64,000 bases of DNA, taken from NCBI RefSeq assembly GCF_004341885.1, contig NZ_SLVX01000002.1, forward strand, positions 372,001-436,000, given 5' to 3'. The notes beneath the pieces were generated by a model. The model was not told the DNA's origin and did not search any database. It saw only the letters and a program-made list of their open reading frames with translations. Each line of letters starts with the position of its first letter. Within the stretch, counting starts at the first letter, position 1. Of this stretch, positions 58,774 through 63,937 are shown piece after piece. The position numbers and the translations under genes were made by a program. The stretch is from Shinella granuli (lineage in GTDB: Bacteria > Pseudomonadota > Alphaproteobacteria > Rhizobiales > Rhizobiaceae).

Positions 58774-59308
58774 TTCTTCTTTCTCCCCAAGGTGTTGCCG
58801 CAGTTTCTTCGCGTGATGCTTTGCGTCTGGTCGCCGTTCCTCTCTTTATAAGATTCACCCATATTCCTTGCGACGGACTCGCATGTTCCGGAATTCCTGC
58901 CCTGGGCATGAAGGACGGCGATTCCATGCGGAGAGGGAGAGGCTTCCGCCTCCGGGCCAGCTCTTGAAATCTGGGGATGTGGATGCTCCCCGCGCGCAGC
59001 GGCGATACGGTGGGACGATCATGTGTCCGATCACAATGCCGGCGGTTTGCGGCCCTTTTTCTTCGCATCTGCGGCGAAACGTCCCGCATTGCACCCATCC
59101 TGAAATCGTAACGATTTAAATGGCTTTGCGTCCGGGGTTTCGCGGCCGCCCGGAAAACAACACAATGAATGGGGCGAAAGCCGGACAAAGCCTTGCGCGG
59201 GGCCGCTCACTGCGCTAACGACGGGGCGTTGCAACATACTTTCTCGGCTTGCAGGTCTTGGACCAACAGGCGTCTCTCCGGCGCCACGAGCAGGCAGGAT
59301 GGACGCCA
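58774..59308. other. Gene-free stretch between tRNA-Asp and nuoA
   Basis: About 535 nt. Short open frames exist but have neither a good Shine-Dalgarno nor family features. Presumably it holds the nuo promoter and leader; no promoter was close enough to consensus to call. Confidence 0.5.
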
Positions 59309-59674
59309 ATGACTGAACTTCTCGGTTCCTATATCCCGATCGCCATCTTCATCGGTATTGCGCTCGTGATCGGCCTTGCGCTGCTGGTCGCGCCGTTTGC
59401 CGTCGCATACAAGGCCCCCGATTCGGAAAAGCTCTCCGCTTACGAGTGCGGCTTCAATGCGTTTGACGATGCGCGCATGAAATTCGATATCCGCTTCTAC
59501 CTGGTGTCGATCCTCTTCATCATCTTCGACCTCGAAGTCGCTTTCCTCTTTCCCTGGGCCGTCTCCTTCGGCGACATGGGCTGGTTCGGCTTCTGGTCGA
59601 TGATGGTCTTCCTCGGTGTGCTGACCATCGGCTTTATCTACGAATGGAAGAAGGGAGCGCTCGAATGGGAGTAG
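59309..59674 (+). CDS. nuoA: NADH-quinone oxidoreductase subunit A
   Basis: 121 residues, three membrane helices (about 8-30, 62-85, 90-112). The conserved loop is [25 protein letters not shown], containing the Cys that undergoes active/deactive changes in complex I. First gene of the nuo operon; it overlaps nuoB by 10 nt. Confidence 0.97.
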
Positions 59675-60246
59675 CCCACACCAACACGACGCTCGTCGCG
59701 CCGCAGGCCAAGGGGATCATCGATCCCAACACCGGCAAGCCCGTCGGCAGCAACGACGCCTTCTTCGGCGAGATCAACAACGAACTCGCCGACAAGGGCT
59801 TTCTCGTCACCTCGACGGATGAGCTTATCACCTGGGCCCGCACCGGCTCGCTGATGTGGATGACCTTCGGTCTCGCCTGCTGCGCGGTGGAGATGATGCA
59901 GCTCTCCATGCCGCGTTACGACGTCGAGCGCTTCGGATTTGCCCCGCGCGCCTCGCCGCGCCAGTCCGACGTCATGATCGTCGCCGGCACGCTGACCAAC
60001 AAGATGGCGCCTGCGCTCCGCAAGGTCTACGACCAGATGCCGGAGCCGCGCTACGTCATCTCGATGGGTTCCTGCGCAAACGGCGGCGGCTACTATCACT
60101 ATTCCTATTCGGTGGTGCGCGGCTGTGACCGCGTGGTGCCGGTCGACATCTATGTACCAGGCTGTCCTCCCACGGCGGAAGCGCTCCTTTACGGCGTGCT
60201 CCTGCTGCAGAAGAAGATCCGCCGGACCGGTACGATCGAGCGTTAA
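59665..60246 (+). CDS. nuoB: NADH-quinone oxidoreductase subunit B
   Basis: 193 residues. The N2 [4Fe-4S] cluster ligands are seen in [11 protein letters not shown] (tandem Cys), [12 protein letters not shown] and [14 protein letters not shown]. It sits at the junction of the peripheral arm and the membrane arm of complex I and donates to quinone. SD GGGAG inside the nuoA end; the start MGVAHTN was chosen on that ground. Confidence 0.98.
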
Positions 60247-60264
60247 GGGCAGGGGACTTTAGAT

Positions 60265-60867
60265 ATGAGCGAAGCCCTCCAGGAGCTTTCCTCCCATATC
60301 GGCGAAGCGGCGGGCAACCTCGTCGCCGCCGCCGATATCGCCTTTGGCGAACTCACCCTGAAGACGGACGGCGCCCGCGTCGTCGAGCTTCTGACCTTCC
60401 TGCGCGACGACGTGCAGTGCGGCTTCGTCAACCTCGTCGATATCTGCGGCGTGGACTGGCCGGCCCGTGCCGAGCGTTTCGACGTGGTCTACCACCTCCT
60501 GTCGCCGCGCCAGAACGTGCGCATCCGCGTCAAGGTGGCGACCGGCGAGGACCAGCCCGTTCCCTCCGCCTGCGCGGTCTATCCGGGCGCCGACTGGTTC
60601 GAGCGCGAAGCCTACGACATGTACGGCATCCTCTTCACCGGCCATCCGGACCTGCGCCGCATCCTCACCGACTACGGCTTCGAGGGGCACCCGCTGCGCA
60701 AGGATTTCCCGACGACCGGCTTCGTGGAAGTGCGCTACGACGACGAGGTCAAGCGCGTCGTGTACGAGCCCGTCGAACTGAAGCAGGAATTCCGCAACTT
60801 CGACTTCCTCTCCCCCTGGGAAGGCACGGACTATGTGCTGCCGGGCGATGAGAAGGCGAAGCAGTAA
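60265..60867 (+). CDS. nuoC: NADH-quinone oxidoreductase subunit C
   Basis: 200 residues. The 30-kDa subunit signature is [41 protein letters not shown]. It has no cofactor and supports NuoD in the peripheral arm. Its stop lies a few nucleotides before the left repeat of the inserted element. Confidence 0.98.
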
Positions 60868-60882
60868 TCAGGAAGTAGGCAA

Positions 60883-60900
60883 TAGCCAATAGGCAGTAGG
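60883..60900 (+). repeat. Left terminal inverted repeat of the element
   Basis: 18 bp, TAGCCAATAGGCAGTAGG, 16 nt after the nuoC stop. Preceded by the related GTAGGCAATAG. Confidence 0.85.
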
Positions 60901-60913
60901 AAGGAGCAAGCGG

Positions 60914-61294
60914 ACGACGATCAATTCCTATCAGGACCTGAAGGTTTGGCAGCGTGCCATGGATCTAGCGGTCGAAAGCTATGAACTGACGCGGCGGTTT
61001 CCCCGTGAAGAGGTTTATGGAATGGTATCGCAAATACGCCGGTCGGCGGCCTCGGTTGCCGCCAACATTGCGGAAGGTCATGGCCGAGATGCTACAGGGC
61101 ACTATGTCCAGCATCTCAAGTTCGCCCAGGGTTCGCTGAAGGAGTTGGAGACGCATCTGATACTTTCATCCCGCGTTGGAATTGCTTCGCCTGAGAAGGT
61201 GATTTCCTTGATGAAGTCGAGTGATGAAGTAGGAAGGATGCTCAGATCGCTGATCCGCAGTTTGCAGGATGGACGAAATGAACGCACGGAATGA
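60914..61294 (+). CDS. Four-helix-bundle protein, 23S rRNA intervening-sequence (S23/IVP) family
   Basis: About 126 residues if started at ACG 60914, which has AAGGAG 7 nt upstream. The usual family start SYxDLKVWQ is coded here (SYQDLKVWQRAMDLA) with no ATG or GTG in frame before it; the first ATG (60959) would cut off 15 residues. Family blocks: ELTRRFPREEVYGMVSQIRRSA, ANIAEGHGR, GSLKELETHL. Homologs are coded in rRNA intervening sequences and as stand-alone genes; function is unknown, possibly RNA binding. It lies within the nuo operon between inverted repeats. Confidence 0.82.
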   Translation, partial: TTINSYQDLKVWQRAMDLAVESYELTRRFPREEVYGMVSQIRRSAASVAANIAEGHGRDATGHYVQHLKFAQGSLKELETHLILSSRVGIASPEKVISLMKSSDEVGRMLRSLIRSLQDGRNERTE

Positions 61295-61308
61295 ACTAAC
61301 CCCTACTG

Positions 61309-61326
61309 CCTACTGCCTATTGGCTA
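61309..61326 (-). repeat. Right terminal inverted repeat of the element
   Basis: Exact inverted copy of the left repeat, 14 nt after the four-helix-bundle stop and 25 nt before the nuoD ATG. An extra CCTACTG unit precedes it. Confidence 0.85.
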
Positions 61327-61351
61327 ATTCCTCCCAGCGCGGAGCGCGCCC

Positions 61352-62542
61352 ATGAACGAGCACAACGTTCGCAACTTTAATATCAACTTCGGGCCGCAGC
61401 ACCCGGCAGCACACGGCGTGTTGCGCCTCGTGCTCGAACTCGACGGCGAAATCGTCGAGCGCGTCGATCCGCATATCGGCCTCTTGCACCGCGGCACCGA
61501 GAAGCTGATCGAGACGAAGACCTATCTCCAGGCCGTGCCCTATTTCGACCGCCTCGACTACGTGGCGCCGATGAACCAGGAGCACGCCTTCGCGCTTGCC
61601 GTCGAAAAGCTGACGGGCACGGAAGTGCCGATCCGAGGCCAGCTCATCCGCGTGCTCTACTCCGAAATCGGCCGTATCCTCTCGCACCTCCTCAACGTCA
61701 CAACGCAGGCCATGGACGTCGGCGCGCTGACGCCGCCGCTCTGGGGCTTCGAGGAACGCGAAAAGCTGATGGTGTTCTACGAGCGGGCCTGCGGCGCGCG
61801 CATGCACTCGGCCTATATCCGCCCCGGCGGCGTGCACCAGGACCTGCCGCACGAGCTGGTGGAAGACATCGGCAAGTGGATCGACCCGTTCCTGAAGACC
61901 GTCGACGATATCGACGAACTTTTGACCGGCAACCGAATCTTCAAGCAGCGCAACGTCGATATCGGCGTCGTGAAGCTGGAGGACTGCTGGGCCTGGGGCT
62001 TTTCGGGCGTCATGGTGCGCGGCTCGGGTGCGGCCTGGGACCTGCGCCGCTCGCAGCCCTACGAGTGCTATTCCGACCTCGACTTCGACATCCCGATCGG
62101 CAAGAACGGCGACTGCTACGACCGTTACGTCATCCGCATGATCGAGATGCGCGAAGCGGCGAAGATCATGCGCCAGTGCGTCGACCGCCTGCTCGGCGAT
62201 GCCAAGGTCGGCCCGGTCTCCTCGATCGACGGCAAGATGGTGCCGCCGAAGCGCGGCCAGATGAAGCGCTCGATGGAAGCGCTCATCCACCATTTCAAGC
62301 TCTACACCGAAGGCTACCACGTGCCGGCCGGCGAGGTGTATGCGGCCGTCGAGGCGCCGAAGGGTGAGTTCGGCGTCTACGTCGTCGCCGACGGCACCAA
62401 CAAGCCGTATCGCTGCAAGATCCGCGCCCCGGGTTACGCCCACCTGCAGGCGATGGATTTCATCTGTCGCGGCCACCAGCTCGCCGATGTCTCGGCGATC
62501 CTCGGCTCGCTCGACATCGTGTTCGGCGAGGTCGATCGCTGA
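61352..62542 (+). CDS. nuoD: NADH-quinone oxidoreductase subunit D
   Basis: 396 residues. 49-kDa subunit: [21 protein letters not shown] near the start, [10 protein letters not shown], and the end [22 protein letters not shown]. It forms the quinone pocket with NuoB. SD GGAG lies just outside the right repeat of the inserted element, so nuoD translation signals are intact. Confidence 0.98.
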
Positions 62543-62784
62543 TGCCGAACGTTGCCCTTGCCACGCTGATCCTCTTGGGGACCGCCGCTGCCGCCAACGC
62601 GCAGCAGGAGGTGCAGATCGGTGCGTCCGGCACCACCATGGGTGCACTGGCGAGCCAGGGCTACGAGATCAAGGCGGCGGCGCCGAACGGCAGCCGCTAC
62701 GTCGTATTCATGCAGAAAGACACGTCGGCCTACGCCTGCGAATTCGTCAACACGACGCAAACGCAGTGCCGGCAGATCAATTGA
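62542..62784 (+). CDS. Small secreted hypothetical protein inside the nuo operon
   Basis: 80 residues. Signal peptide [20 protein letters not shown] with cleavage before QQ. The mature part has two Cys (YACEF, TQCRQ) that could form a disulfide. ATG overlaps the nuoD stop by 1 nt (TGATG) and nuoE follows 16 nt later, so it is co-expressed. A periplasmic protein has no obvious place in complex I. No family recognised. Confidence 0.72.
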
Positions 62785-62800
62785 GACAAGGCGTTACAGA

Positions 62801-63937
62801 ATGTCCGTTCGTCGACTAGCCGATGACAATGTCCAGCCCGCCAGCTTCGCCTTCACCAAGGAGAACGCGGCCTGGGCCAAGGCAACGATCAACAAGTATC
62901 CGAAGGGCCGCCAGCAGTCGGCGGTCATCCCGCTTCTGATGCGGGCGCAGGAGCAGGACGGCTGGGTCACCAAGGCGGCGATCGAATCCGTCGCCGACAT
63001 GCTCGGCATGGCCTATATCCGCGTGCTCGAGGTCGCGACCTTCTACACCCAGTTCCAGCTGCTGCCGGTCGGTACGCGCGCCCATGTCCAGGTCTGCGGC
63101 ACGACGCCCTGCATGCTGCGCGGCGCGGAAGACCTGATCAATGTCTGCAAGAAGCGCATCCATCCCGAGCCCTTCCATCTCAATGAGACGGGCACGCTCT
63201 CCTGGGAAGAGGTCGAGTGTCAGGGCGCCTGCGTCAACGCGCCGATGATCATGATCTTCAAGGACAGCTATGAGGACCTGACAGCGACGCAGCTCGAGCA
63301 CATCATCGACCGTTTCGATGCCGGCAAGGGCGCCGACATCACGCCCGGCCCGCAGGTCGACCGCATCTTCTCCGCCCCGGTCGGCGGCCTCACCAGCCTC
63401 AACGAGCCGGAAGCAGTCGCGAAGAAGGCGCCGGCCCGTGCCCGGAAGACCGAGGAGGAGAGCGTCAGCGTTCCCCCGTCGAATGCCGCAAAGCCGAAGA
63501 CGGATGCCGTCGAGACCGATCCCAAGCTGAAGACGCCGGCGACCGCCAAGGCCGAAGCGGCCGCCAACACCAAGGTGACCGGCGACACGCGCGCCGAAGG
63601 CGGCGATGACGCCGCCAAGCAGCCGATCGCGGCCGCTACCGGCAAGCCGTCGCTGGAAGACAAGAACCGTCCGGCCGGCATCGCCCGCCCGCAAACGCCC
63701 GACGACCTGAAGCTCATCTCCGGCGTCGGCCCGAAGATCGAGGGCATTCTCCACGAGCTCGGCATCTTCACTTTCGCGCAGGTCGCGGCCTGGAAGAAGG
63801 CGGAGCGCGAATGGGTCGATTCCTATCTGAATTTTAAGGGCCGCATCGAGCGCGACGACTGGGTCAAGCAGGCCAAGGCGCTCGCCAAGGGCGGCGAAGC
63901 GGAATACATCCGCGTCTTCGGCAAGAAGCCGCGGTAA
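62801..63937 (+). CDS. nuoE: NADH-quinone oxidoreductase subunit E with C-terminal extension
   Basis: 378 residues, far longer than the usual 160-220. Residues about 1-200 are normal NuoE: the N1a [2Fe-2S] ligands lie in [11 protein letters not shown] and [12 protein letters not shown]. Then comes a low-complexity Ala/Lys/Pro linker (about 210-290), followed by a helix-hairpin-helix-like domain ([21 protein letters not shown]) and [22 protein letters not shown]. Such extensions occur in other rhizobial NuoE proteins. Confidence 0.95.

Follow-up and report, generated by a model that had tools for sequence, protein, structure and literature searches.

The insert between nuoC and nuoD of Shinella granuli appears, on balance, to belong to a repeat system, of which it would be the gene-bearing form and in which the S23 protein would act in trans as the partner of heptad palindromes. 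It lies in the window, the 64,000-nucleotide stretch of DNA that was analysed, and comprises about 467 bp in which an S23/IVP gene sits inside inverted heptad arms. This reading draws directly on the anatomy of the insert, the empty sites in relatives, the co-variation of the two arms, the match between arm heptads and dispersed heptads, the association of heptads with S23 genes, and the selection acting on the protein. The features, all on the + strand, are the following:

60868..61334, whole inserted element, with approximate ends from the nuoC stop codon to just beyond the right arm (sequence and empty junctions in relatives)
60265..60867, nuoC, host gene on the 5' side (PF00329)
61352..62542, nuoD, host gene on the 3' side (PF00346)
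60870..60900, left arm of G-rich heptads, reading TAGGCAA TAGCCAA TAGGCAG TAGG (sequence, inverted-repeat search)
61302..61332, right arm of C-rich heptads, complementary to those of the left arm (sequence, inverted-repeat search, arm duplex)
60883..60900, left half of the perfect 18-bp core of the inverted repeat, inside the left arm (read in the sequence)
61309..61326, right half of the same perfect 18-bp core (read in the sequence)
60901..60906, AAGGAG, which lies 7 nt ahead of ACG and probably serves the S23 gene as ribosome-binding site, with a similar layout in relatives
60914..61294, S23/IVP four-helix-bundle gene (PF05635), with a probable ACG start and a TGA stop
61337..61347, small hairpin GCGC-GGA-GCGC ahead of the nuoD start (read in the sequence, no statistics)

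The earlier note had recognised an S23/IVP gene within an 18-bp perfect inverted repeat between nuoC and nuoD, and profile searches bear this out. The gene matches PF05635 (123.9 bits, cut-off 33.8) and TIGR02436 (119.9 bits, cut-off 24), and its neighbours match PF00329 and PF00346. It has weak homology to Avd of diversity-generating retroelements, but it scores below both Avd cut-offs (bAvd 28.8 bits versus 40; Avd 30.9 versus 80). Between the arms, no sense-strand ORF other than S23 reaches 60 aa, and the Pfam and NCBIfam matches of the S23 ORF are to S23 plus Avd-like or unnamed subfamilies. Within that scope, the insert does not carry the transposase expected of an IS element or of the autonomous copy of a MITE. 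The heptad make-up of the arms goes beyond what the earlier note had read. Together they form a 31-nt inverted repeat with 87% identity, and, leaving aside another register in which these arms also align, no other inverted repeat in the surrounding 2.2 kb is longer than 20 nt. No Rfam family matched positions 59000-63000, and PADLOC gave no match. Hairpins with GGA or AGA loops near the nuoD start also occur at other filled sites (L048, L062, L069), with stems that differ between genomes. Directly after the nuoD stop, an 80-aa ORF (62542-62784) has a signal-like N-terminus by eye and no Pfam match.

The S23 frame of the window has no ATG, GTG or TTG codon upstream of its conserved SYQDLKVW motif, and its start is likely the ACG at 60914, 7 nt past AAGGAG. 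A Shine-Dalgarno-like stretch followed after 6-7 nt by ACG is also found in L022, L062, L084, L124, L130, L138 and L140. Over the first 15 core codons, the window gene and its orthologue in genome G015 differ by six synonymous changes and no others. This recurrent layout and the purely synonymous early differences argue for a non-AUG start and against a dead gene. The S23 protein is under strong purifying selection, with dN/dS values of 0.04-0.10 in 12 of the 13 close pairs compared (the thirteenth was too close to define a value) and 0.05 between the window gene and the G015 orthologue. Among relatives elsewhere, some copies are short or broken. At L093, L094 and L095, an out-of-frame ATG opens a five-codon frame before the conserved S23 frame, yet the two pairs for which dN/dS was estimated both give values under 0.1. 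S23 structures in the PDB are 2rld and 2gsc, the latter being Xanthomonas XCC0516. A Xanthomonas member of the family is described as a pentamer of four-helix bundles, and S23 proteins are described in the same source as being without known function (PMC4990558).

In the predicted RNA fold, the arms are paired in both the MFE and centroid structures, with an arm duplex energy of -38.3 kcal/mol, and the stability of the whole region is only modestly unusual compared with shuffles (z = -2.0). This pairing would suit an RNA-processing element, in which pairing of the arms within nuo mRNA would let RNase III cut the stem and harmlessly release the S23 RNA from between the cistrons, as happens with IVS in 23S rRNA. 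The mostly sense orientation of the elements and the excision of the Coxiella rRNA IVS by RNase III (PMC4990558) are consistent with this idea. However, cutting alone would leave the strong selection on the S23 protein unexplained, and one gene-less hairpin lies between apparently convergent genes, where no cistrons need to be separated. We therefore consider RNA processing possible rather than probable, and it is compatible with S23 being the partner of the repeats.

Intervening sequences with an S23 ORF have been described in the 23S rRNA of Leptospira, Coxiella and Brucella (PMC4990558). Like them, the nuoC-nuoD insert has a PF05635 protein and complementary ends around its ORF. Unlike them, it does not lie in a 16S or 23S rRNA helix but follows a stop codon inside an operon of protein genes, its arms are tandem heptads, and it has dispersed gene-less relatives. 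Only 1 of 143 S23 loci falls in 23S rRNA, as judged by comparison with L087, which Rfam places there. Since the rRNA location is exceptional in this sample, the picture of an rRNA IVS that strayed into an operon seems to have things reversed for this branch.

Inverted arms recur at S23 loci of several phyla. PF05635 is matched in 43 of the 397 genomes of the order (40 above cut-off). At 42 of 48 loci in the order, the inverted-repeat score of the flanks exceeds the maximum of control flanks taken 700 nt further out; 49 of 52 loci had been kept for this comparison (L088, L090 and L092 have no phmmer match), and one short locus was dropped. The score also exceeds all controls at 68 of 80 multi-phylum loci, which are the best 80 of 552 relatives and thus lean toward the query, and which include cyanobacteria, acidobacteria, planctomycetes, Chloroflexi and Bacteroidota. 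Clear arms are missing at 6/48 loci of the order and at 12/80 of these best multi-phylum relatives. On viruses and plasmids, arms rise above the shuffled maximum at 6 of 11 and 11 of 15 loci, respectively. The repeat unit is 8 nt in 14 of 136 loci, with 12 of those in one protein clade, and it is 7 nt in all others except four in which no unit was called (one is a run of N). In 59 of 61 nuoC-nuoD elements, near-copies included, the left arm matches the right arm of the same element more closely than it matches, on average, those of 12 other elements, which indicates that the two arms change together.

Two other observations concern the form of the arms. At L265, the heptads AGCTAAA/AGCCAAA around S23 are direct rather than inverted. 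Left arms close three reading frames in 83/129 loci and right arms do so in 8/129. The notion that heptads serve as all-frame translation stops is no more than an idea, with just 27 of 45 distinct units carrying a stop codon versus 45% of shuffled units.

The nuoC-nuoD junction is empty in many relatives, which upholds the earlier note's proposal of an insertion into the operon. In the genus of the window, 16 of 21 genomes have an empty junction with a similar gap of about 50 nt, three have an S23 element, one has a gene-less hairpin, and one has another insert. One of the three S23 elements (G006) has a different heptad, TAGCGAA, and a diverged protein. A second genus, which appears to be Mesorhizobium-like, offers 28 readable junctions among 29 (L216 has no nuoD on its contig). 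Seventeen of these are empty, measuring 2-12 nt if counting begins at the first base of the stop codon, nine have an S23 element of one of two distinct types, and two have other inserts. The other inserts at nuoC-nuoD in the two genera (L041; L212 and L215) measure 193, 375 and 128 nt. The filled form begins at the nuoC stop codon, and comparison of filled and empty junctions shows, by eye, no target-site sequence duplicated at both ends. The earlier note had held that the same gene and repeats at this position throughout the Rhizobiaceae, with no copies elsewhere, would speak against a mobile element. This is not what we find, as S23 occurs in only those three genomes of the genus and the repeats are present elsewhere.

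Because the elements lie directly behind stop codons, the host proteins stay almost whole. Of 129 surveyed loci, 54 have S23 in sense between nuoC and nuoD. Among 15 annotated plasmid loci (of 36 records, some of them near-copies, with an incomplete gene table), the upstream neighbour is on the S23 strand in 13 and both neighbours are in 12. Calling orientation from ORF length proved too noisy: a first version placed both neighbours on the S23 strand in 49/124 loci, and a second did so in 57/73 loci outside nuoC-nuoD but in only 34/54 at nuoC-nuoD, where both are known to be co-oriented. We consequently rely on the nuoC-nuoD set and the annotated plasmid loci. Three of the 15, on cyanobacterial plasmids, have S23 inside cas operons (L260, L265 and L269, as cas6-S23-cas4 twice and cas10-S23-cmr3), and this placement may be the reason that the S23 family is named in a CRISPR-linkage screen (PMC10910872). 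Two Calothrix plasmids with the same element also have the neighbouring genes in common and are uninformative on movement.

The presence of the element at nuoC-nuoD in many families is as compatible with domestication as with mobility. S23 might be a domesticated nuo regulator that binds to the stem of its own element and adjusts nuoD expression, and the frequency of this site, the dN/dS of about 0.05, the recurrent ACG start and the GGA-loop hairpin ahead of nuoD could all be read in this way. A nuo regulator is nevertheless unlikely to be the explanation, given that S23 is present in so few genomes of the order (43/397) and of the genus (3/21), and that the same design occurs in other operons, with S23 genes in cas operons as well.

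The window genome (G000) also contains gene-less relatives of the arms. It has 35 partly overlapping exact sites of TAGGCAGTAGG, compared with five for the reversed pattern, and those outside the S23 element fall in 11 short places. The earlier note suggested looking for further copies of the repeat with S23 genes; the genome search found no second S23 gene, and the copies are gene-less heptad hairpins. They are hairpin-like, with a G-rich arm 5' and a C-rich arm 3'; by a simple rule this layout is clear in 9 of 11, and the remaining two have worn arms. Many of these hairpins start some tens of bases past the upstream stop codon, judged by eye. One hairpin site is occupied in G000, G015, G017 and G011 and unoccupied in G004, G009 and G013, which have a 43-44 nt gap there; the other readable genomes of the genus have unrelated sequence at this site, and two genomes are unreadable. 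In the corresponding gap, L234 and L240 have different palindromic-looking repeats. Some genomes of the genus without S23 are still rich in TAGGCAG (63 hits in G016, 28 in G018 and 20 in G004), so S23 is not required for the heptads to persist. A long heptad pair in another genome (G202:C117), suspected of enclosing a gene, holds no S23-like frame.

Heptad abundance is associated with the presence of S23. At least three heptad hits outside S23 loci occur in 27 of 45 S23-bearing genomes versus 2 of 35 genomes without S23, the latter picked in list order rather than randomly (p = 3e-7, with kinship ignored). These counts cover two heptads in 80 genomes of the order, include overlapping hits that can share one array, and have the fetched S23 loci subtracted; before subtraction the fractions are 30/45 and 2/35. 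The other 18 of 45 S23-bearing genomes have fewer than three hits of the two heptads searched, and 13 of them have none. The richer heptad in a genome also tends to be the heptad of its S23 arms, as it is in 9 of 10 genomes with A arms and 8 of 10 with B arms (p = 0.005; 22 genomes, arms classed by eye, two ties set aside). The non-matching heptad is more abundant in G202, G400 and G072.

Heptad class follows protein lineage at nuoC-nuoD. On a tree of 33 proteins from this site, heptad class changes six times versus 14.6 in shuffles (0/500 as low), and for 27 proteins from other sites there is no clustering (14 changes versus 15.0, 160/500 as low). For both of these site-wise tests, proteins were thinned to below 70% identity and heptads of class 'other' were excluded. 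All 77 representatives, with class 'other' included, give 27 changes versus 47.5 in shuffles. The protein tree, from 132 of 136 proteins (85-150 aa) and 122 columns, has many unresolved forks, and shared descent alone could explain the tie between heptad and lineage at nuoC-nuoD. Of 15 cyanobacterial genomes with S23, 13 have 7 to 1672 overlapping hits of the AGGGAAY heptad pattern, and the other two have two and four. The pattern has 0 to 7 hits in 25 non-cyanobacterial genomes with S23 loci, and the reversed control has none in all 40.

These patterns bear on two other accounts of the repeats. The heptads could be simple repeats born of slippage that lie at S23 genes by chance, since tandem 7-mers differ in their number of units and repeats of this kind are known in Xanthomonas and Nostoc (PMC4692102). 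Yet the consistent inverted pairing with the G-rich arm first, the fit of each left arm to its own right arm, and the association with S23 make this scarcely credible. It is also very unlikely that these are REPIN/MITE-type elements moved in trans by a known transposase (RAYT/Y1), with S23 as a passenger. Intergenic hairpin doublets in many copies are what such elements would produce, and the dispersed inverted doublets of G000 do have REPIN form. However, a search for the Y1/RAYT transposase family PF01797, the sole family searched, finds none in G000 at E <= 0.001, none in G006 or G015, and none in 20 of 24 heptad-rich genomes, and the junctions read show no target duplication by eye. RAYT is thus unlikely to be the agent in the window genome.

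The partner reading can be compared with known repeat systems. Like the REPIN/RAYT system as described in PMC3116915, it combines dispersed intergenic hairpin doublets with a partner gene to which the repeat type is matched. Unlike in that system, the partner here is S23 rather than a Y1 transposase, and the arms are 7-nt tandem repeats that can enclose the partner gene. The tandem 7-nt units in intergenic inverted pairs also place the insert among heptameric intergenic repeats. Heptameric G-rich repeats described in Xanthomonas (GGGAATC) and Nostoc (GGGGA(C/T)T) similarly have a 7-nt unit, lie for the most part between genes, some 28 nt past the preceding ORF, and form inverted pairs, of which two Xanthomonas genomes have 70 and 75 (PMC4692102). 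A word search of the main text of that paper returns neither 'S23' nor 'four helix'. In the papers cited here, heptameric intergenic repeats are given no partner gene. Xanthomonas, which bears heptamers, also encodes the S23 protein XCC0516 (PDB 2gsc). The TAACTGA heptamers of Beggiatoaceae, cyanobacteria and Bacteroidetes resemble the present repeats in their 7-nt unit, intergenic location and overlapping phyla, but they are direct repeats upstream of start codons, and the abstract that describes them makes no link to S23 (PMC4679880). Among the matches listed in the open-access literature, preprints not included, no title or abstract joins S23 genes with heptad repeats, although priority is unproven.

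We infer the steps of binding, copying, mobilisation and RNA processing, and any role of RNA folding, from these patterns. In the proposed mechanism, each palindrome would have the layout 5'-(G-rich heptad)n-loop-(C-rich heptad)n-3', with S23 between the arms in the gene-bearing form and only arms and a short loop in gene-less forms. Both forms would settle just behind stop codons and leave host proteins nearly intact, and the gene-bearing form, lying mostly in sense inside operons, would be read by host transcription. The S23 protein would most likely recognise the folded heptad stem, as RNA or as single-stranded DNA, and may help the stem to be copied or kept, with the chemistry performed by host enzymes. 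We know of no catalytic site in S23. A broader and more tentative proposal, which we hold to be conceivable but would not presume, is that S23 lineages founded transposase-free selfish or symbiotic repeats, each recognising its own heptad stem and spreading it through the genome behind stop codons. The palindromes of Rhizobiales, Xanthomonas and cyanobacteria would then be one system, and the rRNA IVS a side branch.

If S23 proteins and heptad repeats do belong together, then each would gain a testable partner. Together they would make up a second type of system that couples a repeat with a protein, alongside RAYT/REPIN, and the S23 genes found within cas or other operons may be passengers there.
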